A DNA stretch of 46,148 nucleotides, taken from positions 1-46,148 of the forward strand of contig JANXNS010000168.1 of assembly GCA_025353965.1 (NCBI GenBank). The letters are read 5' to 3'. The stretch comes from Aquihabitans sp. GTDB taxonomy: Bacteria > Actinomycetota > Acidimicrobiia > Acidimicrobiales > Iamiaceae. Position 1 is the first letter of the stretch, and each line of letters begins with the position of its first letter. Shown here in pieces: positions 979 to 37,034 of the stretch. Under the pieces are notes generated by a model, which did no database searches, was not told the origin of the DNA, and saw only the letters and a list, made by a program, of their open reading frames with translations. The position numbers and the translations under genes are program-made.

Positions 979-1515
979 ATGTCTCCGGTGGCCGGTCCCC
1001 TCTTCGCGGCGGCGCTCCTGCTGGCAGCGGCGGGGCTGCTCAAGATCACCTCACCCGACCCCACCCGGGTGGCGCTGCGAACGGCGGGCTTGCCCAACAC
1101 CGCCCTCGCTGCCCGCTCGCTCGGGGCCGTAGAAGTGGCGATCACGCTGTACACGTTGGCCGTCGGCGGCCGGGTGGCCGCTGGCCTCGTCTCCCTCGCC
1201 TATCTCGGCTTTGCCGGGTTCAGTTTCCTGGTCATCAGGACATCGCGCGGCAAGGCATCGTGCGGATGCTTCGGAGCTTCGGACGCTCCGCTCACCAACT
1301 TGCACGTGGGCGTCGACGTTGTCATTGCGGCGGTTGCGGCTCTCGGGATCGTGAATCCCATCCCTGGGCTGTTCACTGTGGCCGCCGAGACGCCACTCTT
1401 CGGCGTCCCCTTCCTCGCCTTCACCGCCCTGCTCGCCTGGCTGGTCCAAGTCCTGCTCACTGCGGTGCCTGAGCTACAAGCCGCCGCCCGTCCACCCCGG
1501 AAGGTGGCCCGATGA
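979..1515 (+). CDS. MauE/DoxX-like membrane protein
   Basis: 178 aa, several hydrophobic helices, CGCFG motif (SRGKASCGCFGAS) typical of MauE-type proteins; 4-nt ATGA overlap with the next gene. Confidence 0.75.
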   Translation: MSPVAGPLFAAALLLAAAGLLKITSPDPTRVALRTAGLPNTALAARSLGAVEVAITLYTLAVGGRVAAGLVSLAYLGFAGFSFLVIRTSRGKASCGCFGASDAPLTNLHVGVDVVIAAVAALGIVNPIPGLFTVAAETPLFGVPFLAFTALLAWLVQVLLTAVPELQAAARPPRKVAR

Positions 1516-2315
1516 CTGTTGTCATCGTTGTTGAAGCGGCCGTCATCGCCGTGCTGGCGCTGCTGGTGGTGGGTCTACTGCGCAGCCACGCTGAGATTCT
1601 CAAACGTCTCCATGAGCTCGGGGCAGGCCTCGATGCCAGCGCCCCCGCTGCTGCCCCTGCGGGCGGCCCCCGGCCCGGGCGAGATTTCCAAGTCATGCCC
1701 CAGATGCCATCGCCACCAGACCGGGAAGCGTTCGGCGGGTCAGCCGATCTGGCCGGCCTGAGCGCTGGTGGGACCGAGACGCTGACGGTCCGCGTGCGCG
1801 GCGTCGAACACGACACGATCGTGGCGTTCCTCTCCTCCGGCTGCATCACCTGCCAGAAATTTTGGGGCGCATTCCGCAAACCCAAGAAGCTCGGTTTGCC
1901 GGCCGGTACCCGCCTCGTGGTGGTGACCAAGGGCGCCGATGCCGAGAGTCCCAGCGCCGTGGCCGCGCTCGCCCCAGCGGGCATCCCTACCGTGATGTCG
2001 ACCGAGGCGTTCGACGACTACGACATCCCCGGCTCTCCCTACTTTGTCCACGTCCACGGCCCCACGGGGCGCGTCCGGGGTGAAGGAACCGGCCCGGATT
2101 GGGATCAGGTCTTTTCCCTCCTCTCACAAGCGTCAGGCGACGCCGAACTGGTGGCCACCCTGGCTGGCTCACAGGTGGCCAAACCCGGCGCCGATGCGGA
2201 CCGGGAGTCCCGCATCGACCGGGAACTCCACGACGCGGGCGTCTCCCCCGGAGACCCAAGTCTTTTTGCAGTCGACCCGGCCACCGACCGCGACCTAGAT
2301 CTAGGTACCTCATGA
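1512..2315 (+). CDS. MauD-like membrane-anchored thioredoxin-fold protein
   Basis: 267 aa, N-terminal TM helix, SSGCITCQKFW CxxC motif in a thioredoxin-like context; overlaps the next gene by ATGA. Confidence 0.7.
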   Translation: MTVVIVVEAAVIAVLALLVVGLLRSHAEILKRLHELGAGLDASAPAAAPAGGPRPGRDFQVMPQMPSPPDREAFGGSADLAGLSAGGTETLTVRVRGVEHDTIVAFLSSGCITCQKFWGAFRKPKKLGLPAGTRLVVVTKGADAESPSAVAALAPAGIPTVMSTEAFDDYDIPGSPYFVHVHGPTGRVRGEGTGPDWDQVFSLLSQASGDAELVATLAGSQVAKPGADADRESRIDRELHDAGVSPGDPSLFAVDPATDRDLDLGTS

Positions 2316-2815
2316 AACTCCAAGCCCACGGGATCGAGACCGACCTGCCGCCCGGGTGGGAGGGACGCATTGCGCTACGCACCATTCCGGGCCCAGGGGC
2401 CGGTGCATCATCGCAACCGGCAGCACGGTCCTTTGGCAACGAAGGCGAGCGACCCAACCCGGTTGTTCACTTGGCCAACTTCGCCCTCCCCGAACAACGG
2501 GGAGACTTTGGCTCCGGGGCCGTAGATGTCATGACCGAGGAGCACATCTTGGTGGTGCTGTTCGAGTACGGGCCAGAGAGCCTTGGCCAGGCACTGTTCA
2601 AGCGGAAGGGCATTCCCACCCCACTCACACCCAACATGTTTTCCCCCTCGGCCCTCCAGCGAACGTTGTCGGGCCAAGCCGGCTGCCAGGTCTTCTTCAC
2701 CGTCGAGAACCGGGCGTTCTGCTGTTACACGGTCCTCGGTCGCCAGTCCGCCGCCAACCGGATTTTACCCCAAGCCAACGCAACCCTCGCTGCCACCAGG
2801 ATTTCGCCCCGATGA
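2312..2815 (+). CDS. Uncharacterised 167-aa protein of the mau-like operon
   Basis: MKLQAHGIETDLPPGWEGRIALRTIPG...; ATG at 2312 overlaps the upstream stop (ATGA) and its TGA overlaps the downstream ATG; no family recognised. Confidence 0.7.
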   Translation: MKLQAHGIETDLPPGWEGRIALRTIPGPGAGASSQPAARSFGNEGERPNPVVHLANFALPEQRGDFGSGAVDVMTEEHILVVLFEYGPESLGQALFKRKGIPTPLTPNMFSPSALQRTLSGQAGCQVFFTVENRAFCCYTVLGRQSAANRILPQANATLAATRISPR

Positions 2816-4449
2816 CTGTCGCCTTCCGCTCCCGCGGCCGCAATCGGCCCGCCGTCGACACCACCGATTTGGCCGACAAGGGGATCCATCGTGACCCCAC
2901 GGCGCACGACCCCATCAGCAGCGGCGGGTTCGCGCAAAAGCTGGTTCACCGGGCCTCCGCCCTACTGAGTGGCGGCACCAGTACCCGCCGATCCTTCCTG
3001 ACCCGGACCGCAGTCTTGGGCTCGGCACTAGCCGTTGGCCCGATCGACTTCATCCTCAAGCCCGGTACGGCTTACGGGTATATCTGCGGAGCTTGCTCGG
3101 AAGGGTGGACCGCCTTCTGCTGCACCATCAACAGCGGCAAGAACGCTTGCCCGCCTGGCAGTTTCATTGCCGGCTGGTGGAAGGCCGACAACGCGGCCTA
3201 CTGCTGCGGCGCCGCCCGGTACATCATCGACTGCAACGCCAGCTGCCCCACCCAATGCTCCTGCCGCTGCACCGGCGCCTCGTGCGACAACCGCAAGACC
3301 TGTTGCAACCAGTTCCGCTACGGCCAATGCCATCAGGAGATCGCCTGCTACGGCCCAGTGGTCTGCCGGGTAGCCACGTGCACGGTGCCGTGGAAATACG
3401 ACCCCAGCTGCACCACATCAAGCGCAACTGACAACCGAACGGTCAACCACGGGGCACCGTGTCTCCCCACAGACTGCGGGTCGCCAATCGCCCAGAAGTA
3501 CAGCGAACTCGGCGGAGCCAGCGGTGTCCTAGGCCCGGCCCTCGGTGCAGAAGAAGCCATGGGCGATGGCCGCGGCCGTCGCCAGCGGTTCCAGAACGGC
3601 AACCTCTACTGGACCCAAACCACCGGCGCCCACGATGTACGGGGGTCACTGCTCCGCGAGTACGCAGACCACGGCGGCGCCTTCGGCGGGCTGAAATATC
3701 CCACCTCCGACACCCGCATAACGAGCGATACGTCCCGCCGTTACAACAACTTTGAGAACGGTCGGATCTACTCCACCGTTTCCGGCGGCATCACCCTGGC
3801 CATTCTCAACCCGTTCTTCTCCAAGCATGAGGGCCTCCGGGGCAGCAGCGGGGTGCTGGGCTACCCGACCGTCGAGGTCAAGAGTTCGGTCGACAATGCG
3901 TCCACGTACGTGAGCTTCGCCAACGGGCGGGTCTATGCGTGGGGCAGCCGAGTTGTGGAAATTCACGGCTCGGTCTTCCGGCTCCATGAGGCGCTTGGCG
4001 GCGTGACCGGGCAACTCAAGCGACCGGTGATCGACCTTGCCCCCGTCGGCGACGGGCGCGGCACCACCCAGTGGTTCGAGGGCGGCATGACGTGGACCAC
4101 CCCCACCACGCTGACCCAGGCTCTCTGGGGCGACGTGCTCAATCGGTATGTGGAAAATGGCACGGCCACTGGGTACCTCAAATACCCCAAGGGTTCCCTA
4201 CGCAACGTTGGCGATGCCCGCGGGACCTTCGCCATCTTCGAGAACGGGCACATCTATGCCAGCCCAACTACGGGGGGCCACCAGGTCCACGGCGCCGTGC
4301 TCACGTACTTCCTCGCCCACGGCGGACCCACCGGAAGCCTTGGCTACCCCACCACCGAACTGGACCCCAGCGGCTCACCGGGAGGGCGCTTCCAGACGTT
4401 TGAACACGGACGCCTCTCCTACGCCGACGGTACCGTCACACCGGTTTGA
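2812..4449 (+). CDS. Tat-signal, Cys-rich methylamine dehydrogenase light-chain-like domain fused to LGFP repeats
   Basis: 545 aa. Twin-arginine leader TRRSFLTRTAVLGSALAV; Cys-rich block CGACSEGWTAFCCTINSGKNACPPGSFIAGWWKAD...CHQEIACYGPVVCRVATC; then six LGFP-type repeats (e.g. HGGPTGSLGYPTTE, LRGSSGVLGYPTVE). Confidence 0.75.
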   Translation: MTVAFRSRGRNRPAVDTTDLADKGIHRDPTAHDPISSGGFAQKLVHRASALLSGGTSTRRSFLTRTAVLGSALAVGPIDFILKPGTAYGYICGACSEGWTAFCCTINSGKNACPPGSFIAGWWKADNAAYCCGAARYIIDCNASCPTQCSCRCTGASCDNRKTCCNQFRYGQCHQEIACYGPVVCRVATCTVPWKYDPSCTTSSATDNRTVNHGAPCLPTDCGSPIAQKYSELGGASGVLGPALGAEEAMGDGRGRRQRFQNGNLYWTQTTGAHDVRGSLLREYADHGGAFGGLKYPTSDTRITSDTSRRYNNFENGRIYSTVSGGITLAILNPFFSKHEGLRGSSGVLGYPTVEVKSSVDNASTYVSFANGRVYAWGSRVVEIHGSVFRLHEALGGVTGQLKRPVIDLAPVGDGRGTTQWFEGGMTWTTPTTLTQALWGDVLNRYVENGTATGYLKYPKGSLRNVGDARGTFAIFENGHIYASPTTGGHQVHGAVLTYFLAHGGPTGSLGYPTTELDPSGSPGGRFQTFEHGRLSYADGTVTPV

Positions 4450-7214: not shown

Positions 7215-9122
7215 TTAGAAGCGGGCCAGGTACTCGGGACCTCGAAGGAGTCCGACCACCAGGTCTCGATTCGGCGTGCCCGCCTCGAGGCGAGGTTCCC
7301 AGTAGGCCCTCGACGCTTCGGATGGCACCCGGCGCACCATGACGAAGAACGCGGTGGTCACCTTGGTGGCTGCGCCGATCCGAGCCTTGTGCTCGGTGGA
7401 ATTGGCGAAGATCAGCGTGAGATCTTGGCGGGCCAAGCCAGCGGTCAGGCGGGGCATCCAGTAGTCGATGTCGTGCTGGGTGGCTTCTCGCCCGAGGGCG
7501 TTGTGGAACAGCAGCCCGACGAAAGCCGCATCGTCGGGTGTTCCGTAGCGTGTGGCGAATTCCGAGGATTGCAGGAATTTGCCAGCGAGATCGCGTGCGG
7601 TCATGCCTCGGTCTCGGTTGCGAACGTTGGTGGTCAGGCCAGCGGTGTCGGGCGCTCGGTCGAGGACTGTTCGGTAGAGACGGTCGACGAGGCCGATGCG
7701 GCTGTCGGTCTTGGGGGAGAGCACCACGCTGGCGGTCAGGACGCCTTGAGGTAGTCCTGCTCGGACGATCGCGCTGGTGTAGGAGCCGACCTTGCTCTGG
7801 GTGATGAGGGAACCTTCGGCGTCGACGAACATCTGCGTCCAGTACTTCGCGCCGGTGACATGGGGGCGCCACCGCACGGGGTCGTTCGTCGCGGCGATGC
7901 GGTTGGAGACATCGATGCGCATCTGCGGCAACCGTCGGTAGACCGCTTCGCCGGGGCAGGAGGTGAAGGCGGTGTCGCGGTGCCCGTTGATCACGGGCAC
8001 ATTCACCACGGTGCCTTCAGCGAATCTGGGGTTGCCACCGCTGGTCACGAGGGTGTGGCCCAGCGGGTCGAGACCTTGCGATCCAACCTTCCAGGCCAAG
8101 ACGTCGCGAAGGGCGGTCAACATGGCGGCGGATGGAACCGCAGCGGCCGGCGTGGCCCCGGGCTGGAATTGGCCCATCAGTGACACACCTACCGACTCGG
8201 CGTTGAAGCCTTTGGCATGACCGCCCCAGGCGGCGTTGTCGATGCCTCCGAGCCGGCCTTCCCACACGCCGCCGAATCGGTCGATCAAGAAGTTGTATGC
8301 GATGTCGCACCAGCCGCGTCCTGCGGTGTGGAACTGGTAGATGCCGGCGAGGATCCCGGGAACGTCGGCTGGTGAGTAGGTATTGGTGCCGTCGGTGTGG
8401 TGCACGATGGCGTGGCGCAGGTTGGCGTTCACCCTCGGGATCGGACCACACACGGGGTCTGTGGAGACCCACCCGCCAGGAGCCCAGGTCGAGCGCAGGT
8501 GGATGGGGGGACCGCCCGCAGGGGTGGCTGGTCGAGCGATCCCGTCGGTGGCGCTGCGGCTGGCAACGGTGCCCGAGTTCGGCCGGAAGGTCATCGCGTC
8601 CAACTCGATGTGCGACGCGAAGCCTTTGACGAGCTCCACTCGGACCGCGGTGACGCCGGATGAACCCACCCAGATCGGACCCGCACCGGGGCGGCTTCTG
8701 GCATCGGGGCCGTCGGTGATTTCGCCGGCCAGATCGGTGGCGGCCGACCAGGCCGAGCCTCGGGTGCGGATGGTGAATCGTGCGTCCGGGTCGCCCGACC
8801 AGACGAGCCCAAGTTGCTGGGTTCCGGTGGGCACGTCCACGTCGACACTCCAACCAGGGCGGGGCCCCTGACCGGACCGGGGCGTGGCGGCTGGTCGGTC
8901 GAGCCCGATCGTCGTGGACACCAGGTCCCCGCCCGGCATTGGGTTGCTCCGAACGGCGATGACACCCAGTAGGGGGTTGGTGCCGGCAGCCGCCGATGCG
9001 AGGCCACCGGCGGGAACCACGAGGGCGGCGACAAGCGCAGCGAGCAGACATCCGTACTTCACTGAGCGGCCACGGACGATCTGGTGTGGCCGTTCGGATG
9101 GGGGGAAGACACTTCGAATCAT
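7215..9122 (-). CDS. Secreted peptidoglycan-recognition/N-acetylmuramoyl-L-alanine amidase domain protein with C-terminal DUF4214-like repeats
   Basis: Signal-like N-terminus; NLRHAIVHHTDGTNTYSP...HTAGRGWCDIAYNFLIDRFGGVWEGR (PGRP/amidase_2); C-terminal VDRLYRTVLDRAPDTAGL and FHNALGREATQHDIDYW (DUF4214-like). Confidence 0.85.
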   Translation of the reverse strand: MIRSVFPPSERPHQIVRGRSVKYGCLLAALVAALVVPAGGLASAAAGTNPLLGVIAVRSNPMPGGDLVSTTIGLDRPAATPRSGQGPRPGWSVDVDVPTGTQQLGLVWSGDPDARFTIRTRGSAWSAATDLAGEITDGPDARSRPGAGPIWVGSSGVTAVRVELVKGFASHIELDAMTFRPNSGTVASRSATDGIARPATPAGGPPIHLRSTWAPGGWVSTDPVCGPIPRVNANLRHAIVHHTDGTNTYSPADVPGILAGIYQFHTAGRGWCDIAYNFLIDRFGGVWEGRLGGIDNAAWGGHAKGFNAESVGVSLMGQFQPGATPAAAVPSAAMLTALRDVLAWKVGSQGLDPLGHTLVTSGGNPRFAEGTVVNVPVINGHRDTAFTSCPGEAVYRRLPQMRIDVSNRIAATNDPVRWRPHVTGAKYWTQMFVDAEGSLITQSKVGSYTSAIVRAGLPQGVLTASVVLSPKTDSRIGLVDRLYRTVLDRAPDTAGLTTNVRNRDRGMTARDLAGKFLQSSEFATRYGTPDDAAFVGLLFHNALGREATQHDIDYWMPRLTAGLARQDLTLIFANSTEHKARIGAATKVTTAFFVMVRRVPSEASRAYWEPRLEAGTPNRDLVVGLLRGPEYLARF

Positions 9123-36452: not shown

Positions 36453-36832
36453 GGGGCTGACCGGTTTCGACGTGGAGACTGGAAGCCGGACGTGCGACCC
36501 GAGTTTCTCAGACTCGTTAAACGGGGAACAAACAGAAGCGCCAAGGGCGACTTCGCTCTCGCCGCCTAATTCACATTAGGTAGTAGAGAGACACTGTGAC
36601 CAGCAATGGCACACGGGGCCTGACCCTTACAGCCCGGCAACAGAAGTAGGGGTTGACGGCGAGAAAGACCGCTGACGGTGAGAAAGACCACTGACATCTC
36701 GGAAAGACGAGGCGGAGGGCGCAAGCCCAGTCAACCCGGTGACGAGCCTGCCGTTACGGCTCAACCTCGGGAACGGTCGTAGCGCGGTCGTCAACCGCTT
36801 CGCGGACGAGGGTTCGATTCCCTCCAGCTCCA
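36453..36832 (+). ncRNA. ssrA: Transfer-messenger RNA
   Basis: 5' GGGGCTGACCGGTTTCGACGTGG and 3' GGTTCGATTCCCTCCAGCTCCA; acceptor GGGGCTG/CAGCTCC; tag frame ends AKGDFALAA-stop (GCC AAG GGC GAC TTC GCT CTC GCC GCC TAA); adjacent to smpB. Confidence 0.95.
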
Positions 36833-37034
36833 CTGGTTGTAGAAATTTCAGCATCTTTCCTGTCCACGGGAGGCGTTGAGCGTTCTGTAGCTTGACAAGC
36901 TGTTGGGCCTTATTCGAACCGCCTGCCGCGATGGTGCGACATGATCGCCAAAGCCTCGGGCTGCTTCGGCCAAGACATCGGCCCTCAGAGGGCTTATCGT
37001 CCCTGGCTGGGTATCAGACTGGTATCATCGCGGC

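Follow-up and report, generated by a model that had tools for sequence, protein, structure and literature searches.

A Mau-type gene set accompanying a proposed disulfide-rich surface protein in Aquihabitans sp. and other actinobacteria

In the mau system, MauE and MauD are required for the disulfide-rich light chain MauA, which contains 12 Cys residues. We analysed a related gene set on contig JANXNS010000168.1 of Aquihabitans sp. (assembly GCA_025353965.1; positions 1 to 46,148, forward strand); this whole stretch of 46,148 nt is referred to below as the window. One of the closest known systems is the mau cluster (mauRFBEDACJGMN type) of Paracoccus denitrificans (L061). Specifically, homologues of MauF, MauE and MauD stand beside a multi-disulfide substrate with a Tat leader in both, and both have a similar short order of E, D and substrate. 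Unlike the Paracoccus cluster, the system in the window is devoid of a MauB heavy chain, amicyanin, MauJ and MauG, and its substrate is not a PF02975 protein. It contains instead an additional gene for a 167-aa protein, and the substrate bears surface-binding tails. A literature search for an operon of MauE, MauD, the 167-aa protein and the Cys-rich core returned no paper.

A second relative is found on a plasmid of Thermomicrobium roseum (L060), where PF02975 proteins adjoin MauE, MauD-like and MauF-like genes, the last with a WSPUG motif. The T. roseum locus differs in that its PF02975 proteins are true members of that family, separated by large hypothetical proteins, and neither the 167-aa gene nor LGFP repeats are among its annotated genes. 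Between 717 and 9349 of this locus, at least two PF02975 proteins are located among several hypothetical proteins of 400–460 aa, and one large protein ends in a MauE domain and is accompanied by the MauD-like and WSPUG MauF-like genes. The T. roseum locus is possibly an unstudied amine-dehydrogenase-like system.

Operon layout and conservation

The operon contains four open reading frames (ORF1–ORF4) arranged in tandem on the forward strand (Table 1). Three ATGA overlaps (1512–1515, 2312–2315 and 2812–2815) link them, exactly as the initial annotation of this DNA had described.

Table 1. Operon features and their positions in the window
Feature	Position	Strand	Basis
MauE-like polytopic membrane protein, 178 aa, CGCFG motif (ORF1)	979..1515	+	PF07291, 2e-12, 48 bits
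MauD-like membrane-anchored thioredoxin-type protein, 267 aa, CITC motif (ORF2)	1512..2315	+	CxxC invariance; family profile
167-aa protein, no evident signal peptide or TM segment (ORF3)	2312..2815	+	Co-occurrence with core; AF2 model
Tat-exported disulfide-rich core with LGFP-repeat tail, 545 aa (ORF4)	2812..4449	+	Tat and LGFP profile matches; Cys count
Twin-arginine leader of the 545-aa protein, TRRSFLTRTAVLGSALAVGP...GTAYG	2983..3072	+	TIGR01409, 18.6 bits; RR invariant
Cys-rich core, 22 Cys, CPPGSFIAGWWK...RYIIDC motif	3073..3480	+	Single-sequence and profile searches
LGFP repeats, exchangeable surface-binding tail	3481..4446	+	PF08310

Across 397 genomes of the phylum, a single-sequence search detected the Cys-rich core in 30 and a profile search in 31. 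When 85,462 species genomes were scanned, 250 relatives were confirmed, the best 80 of which are actinobacterial; Acidimicrobiia, Nitriliruptoria, Frankiales, Nakamurella and Kineococcus account for many of these. The nearest relative is that of Aquihabitans sp. G128, at 89% over leader and core. Gene context was compared at 60 full-context loci, namely those with at least 4 kb present on each side. Genes for MauE, the MauD-like protein, the 167-aa protein and the core lie on the same strand in 57 of them; because order and content are retained to this extent, the operon is not a chance assembly. The order of the window, MauE-MauD-167aa-core, to which the initial annotation had drawn attention, is the commonest (39 loci), and MauE-core-MauD-167aa is next (11 loci). 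At Nitriliruptoria-type loci (L034, L035, L037, L039–L042, L105 and others), a secreted, apparently S-layer-homology-like protein of ~220–245 aa is encoded just downstream of the core gene.

MauE, MauD-like, 167-aa and MauF-like partners

ORF1 belongs to the MauE family. Its PF07291 match, for which the cut-off is 27 bits, is the sole one in the source genome, and a profile of the ORF1 family gives Paracoccus MauE 42.7 bits. ORF2 has an N-terminal membrane anchor and a CITC motif, whose CxxC pattern is invariant across 31 relatives. By itself, ORF2 matches no Pfam or NCBIfam model, the MauD equivalog TIGR02661 included, and a profile of its homologues gives canonical Paracoccus MauD 39.8 bits. 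ORF2 is a MauD-related, membrane-anchored thioredoxin-type protein with a CxxC motif.

The 167-aa protein matches no Pfam family. Its gene and the Cys-rich core occur in the identical set of 31 of the 397 phylum genomes, so that two strictly co-occurring families lacking a Pfam model are defined here. The AF2 model of the 167-aa protein is compact and confident, with pLDDT of 92.6, and its fold matches are weak and of the MucB/PsbP/LpqN/EagT6 type. From the co-occurrence and the absent signal, we propose that the 167-aa protein acts in the cytoplasm as a chaperone or escort for the Tat substrate.

An extra gene of ~200 codons is located in or beside the operon at 78 of 109 loci compared. The profile of this fifth gene gives canonical MauF 77.5 bits, a score quoted in bits because its E-value covered six sequences. 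A MauF homologue is present in all 31 core-positive genomes (31/31) and in 1 of 23 core-negative genomes. In the source genome, MauF is encoded outside the window as an intact, unlinked WSPCG copy on another contig (C39, 5086–5751), and in the single-contig relative G375 it is likewise far from the operon. The DsbD_2/CcdA model PF13386 gives a weak match in 18 of 30 MauF-like members. The protein is nevertheless not a generic CcdA, since its profile detects a single copy in the source genome and is nearly without matches in core-negative genomes. Judged by these counts, MauF is a near-obligate fifth partner, which was absent from the initial annotation. Assignment of the fifth gene as a second MauD was rejected as an artefact of overlapping reading frames in clustering; separate profiles identify it as MauF. 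One genome that lacks the Cys-rich core gave a weaker MauF-like match, which contains an in-frame TGA (G275:C5:8659-9279).

In 70 of 80 MauF-like loci (some of which are repeat fetches of one contig), including that of T. roseum, an in-frame TGA, flanked on either side by coding sequence, occupies the Cys position of WSPCG. The Cys form is found in eight relatives and in the source genome. Examples of WSP[U]G genes are L139:993-1673, L104:1646-2317, L145:6264-6962 and L060:8684-9346. Upstream of the TGA, the reading frame continues through a conserved TM segment, with codon entropy of the coding type (0.67, 0.51 and 1.27 by codon position). Downstream, many members have a hairpin whose apical loop is GGU or GGC, although it was not found in all those folded; of five members folded, two gave z of about −2, and the hairpin is possibly a SECIS. 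From these features we infer, strongly, that MauF-like proteins form an apparently undescribed selenoprotein family in most relatives. A 2026 review describes 119 prokaryotic selenoprotein families, none of which is MauF-like (PMC13188914), and the MauF-like proteins are a candidate family outside these 119.

Apparent selenocysteine in MauF suggests a high redox demand, and the CcdA/DsbD-like class to which the MauF-like protein is related (PF13386) often carries reducing equivalents outward. Both features would suit a Cys-rich head that acts as a redox-active surface thiol/disulfide carrier fed by MauD and MauF, with a tail that merely positions it. We consider such a carrier unlikely, as 16 Cys columns are conserved in >80% of homologues, which fits a structural scaffold, and the structure search of the core showed no thioredoxin-type fold.

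The Cys-rich core and its exchangeable tail

The TIGR01409 match of ORF4 is over the cut-off, and the RR of the leader is invariant in 28 relatives. ORF4 contains exactly 22 Cys, located in residues 92–222, and none in the LGFP part, which comprises six LGFP stretches (PF08310, 162 bits against a cut-off of 22). The initial annotation had counted about 22 Cys outside the LGFP part, together with six repeats and a Tat leader; the Cys number is now exact, with all residues before the repeats, and the other two features were recovered by profile search. The number of Cys in the mature protein is even in 77 and odd in 18 of 95 homologues, which share descent and hence are not independent counts.

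The Cys-dense motifs of the core (CSCRC and CC) and the thioredoxin-like partner could also be read as a metal storage or sensing surface protein, in which Cys residues bind metal ions and are kept reduced by MauD and MauE. Such a role is improbable, because the protein is exported, its Cys number is mostly even, the client of the known Mau factors is a disulfide protein, and the structure search described below gave disulfide-bonded light chains and no metal sites.

The tail is LGFP in 43 of 66 homologues. The others have FG-GAP, CWB2, ricin-type lectin, DUF4214 or one of several unnamed repeats, and some proteins stop at the core. Since most tail types fit surface or glycan binding, the core forms the conserved unit, to which the tail adds a replaceable address. 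LGFP is a surface repeat (PMC2447325), and the tail of the window protein is similar to that of other LGFP surface proteins (PF08310), with the difference that across the family the tail is exchangeable and sometimes absent. LGFP is therefore incidental to the system: the tether that the initial annotation had emphasized is present in the window protein and does not define the family.

A second copy of the core stands alone at L090, where its tail is ricin-like and the operon is missing; the full operon is at L091 of the same genome. Two tails in the Cys-rich family contain DUF4214, and this domain has a likely counterpart elsewhere in the window, where 7215–9122 (minus strand) encodes a 635-aa protein that, by reading of its translation, appears to combine an N-acetylmuramoyl-L-alanine amidase/PGRP-like portion with a C-terminus resembling DUF4214.

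Possible relationship to amine dehydrogenase light chains and proposed mechanism

The core shares with the MADH/AADH light chain (PF02975, TIGR02659) a Tat leader, a Cys-dense domain of ~110–140 residues and the motif order CPPG-W-DC, and differs from it in having 22 Cys, no profile match and no conserved second Trp for TTQ. PF02975 matched neither the Cys-rich protein of the window nor 28 homologues, and gave nothing over the cut-off in 397 genomes. A full-length profile aligned with MauA at an hhalign probability of 96%, which fell to 3–7% without the Tat leader. The profile-profile score of the mature domain was 19–22, against a mean near 13 and maxima of 19–26 for column-shuffled controls, and local profile comparison of core and light chain gave z of ~2.2–2.6. 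Against single MauA mature domains, the profile scored no better than shuffles, and a PDB sequence search with the core returned chance matches only. Assignment to MauA by sequence was rejected, because the Tat leader accounts for most of the hhalign probability, and the mature domain scores at the edge of the shuffled controls.

The structure of the core was modelled with AF2 at pLDDT of 77.6 and pTM of 0.76. A Foldseek search of 350,542 chains gave 23 hits; AADH/MADH light chains make up 15 of them, the top four included, with E-values of at least 3.4 and TM-scores of at most 0.37. The label "MADH-light-chain-like", introduced by the initial annotation, thus found no support from the PF02975 profile or the mature-domain profile scores; the structure search points to light chains at non-significant E-values, and the label is a plausible hypothesis on structural grounds. 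Context favours common descent, because the combination of MauF, MauE and MauD is one known from clusters for amine dehydrogenases, and the PF02975 proteins of T. roseum are located beside the same three genes. With structure suggestive, context favourable and sequence non-significant, we think it fairly likely that the core shares descent with the MADH/AADH light chain.

Shared descent raises the question of shared activity. WW after CPPG and D of RYxxDC are invariant in core homologues, and their order in local profile alignment matches that of W57 and D76 in MauA. These residues could form a modified-residue cofactor in an active quinoprotein, with some other partner substituting for MauB; MauF, MauE and MauD are, after all, the mau maturation set, and a di-haem CCP/MauG-family protein is encoded in the source genome. 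We give this reading little credence. No second invariant Trp for a Trp-Trp crosslink was found, and core-only members have lost the PW motif (the residue equivalence itself being uncertain). MauB (PF06433) has no match in the source genome and so none in the window; a further PF06433 search also found no match, though it is weakly controlled, as the control genomes gave none either. The CCP_MauG family matched in 1 of 54 genomes, namely the source genome, where a protein with two CxxCH motifs is encoded outside the window (G000:C190; L160:69-1364). In addition, no conserved cupredoxin or cytochrome is among the neighbour families listed. Given the missing MauB match, the single CCP_MauG match and the missing second Trp, the core is unlikely to be a TTQ enzyme; a role for MauG in the system was rejected on the same single match. 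The initial annotation had reported neither MauB nor MauG in the window, which agrees with these searches.

The operon and its MauF partner are probably a dedicated oxidative-folding and export route of the MauF-MauE-MauD type for one disulfide-locked surface protein, and not an amine dehydrogenase. Mau-type maturation of a Tat-exported, disulfide-rich protein, apart from methylamine oxidation, had already been put forward by the initial annotation, and the MauE family match, the MauD score and the MauF partner bear it out. Specifically, the 167-aa protein would bind the new Cys-rich precursor in the cytoplasm, and the precursor, whose Tat signal is observed, would leave by the Tat route. MauE and MauF in the membrane (the latter with WSP[C/U]G, whose variable residue is Cys or, in the majority of relatives, what appears to be selenocysteine) would pass redox equivalents to MauD. 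The extracytoplasmic CxxC of MauD would form or shuffle ~11 disulfides in the core, as suggested by the known roles of MauE and MauD and by Cys parity, so that the three proteins would together bring about disulfide formation or isomerisation once the precursor has been exported. The finished core would be a rigid structural knob, and the exchangeable tail, here LGFP, would hold it at the wall or bind glycans. The core may have descended from the MADH/AADH light-chain fold without MauB, generally without MauG and without the conserved second Trp.

A broader reading is that a largely selenocysteine-dependent Mau-type machine (seleno-MauF, MauE, MauD and a new chaperone) builds modular, disulfide-locked surface proteins of actinobacteria from a quinoprotein light-chain fold with interchangeable wall- and glycan-binding tails; we offer this tentatively, at somewhat under even chances. 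With a second and apparently wider client, the chemistry of MauF, MauE and MauD becomes open to study outside methylotrophy. Elsewhere in the window, a tmRNA gene with the tag AKGDFALAA is located at 36453–36833 on the plus strand.
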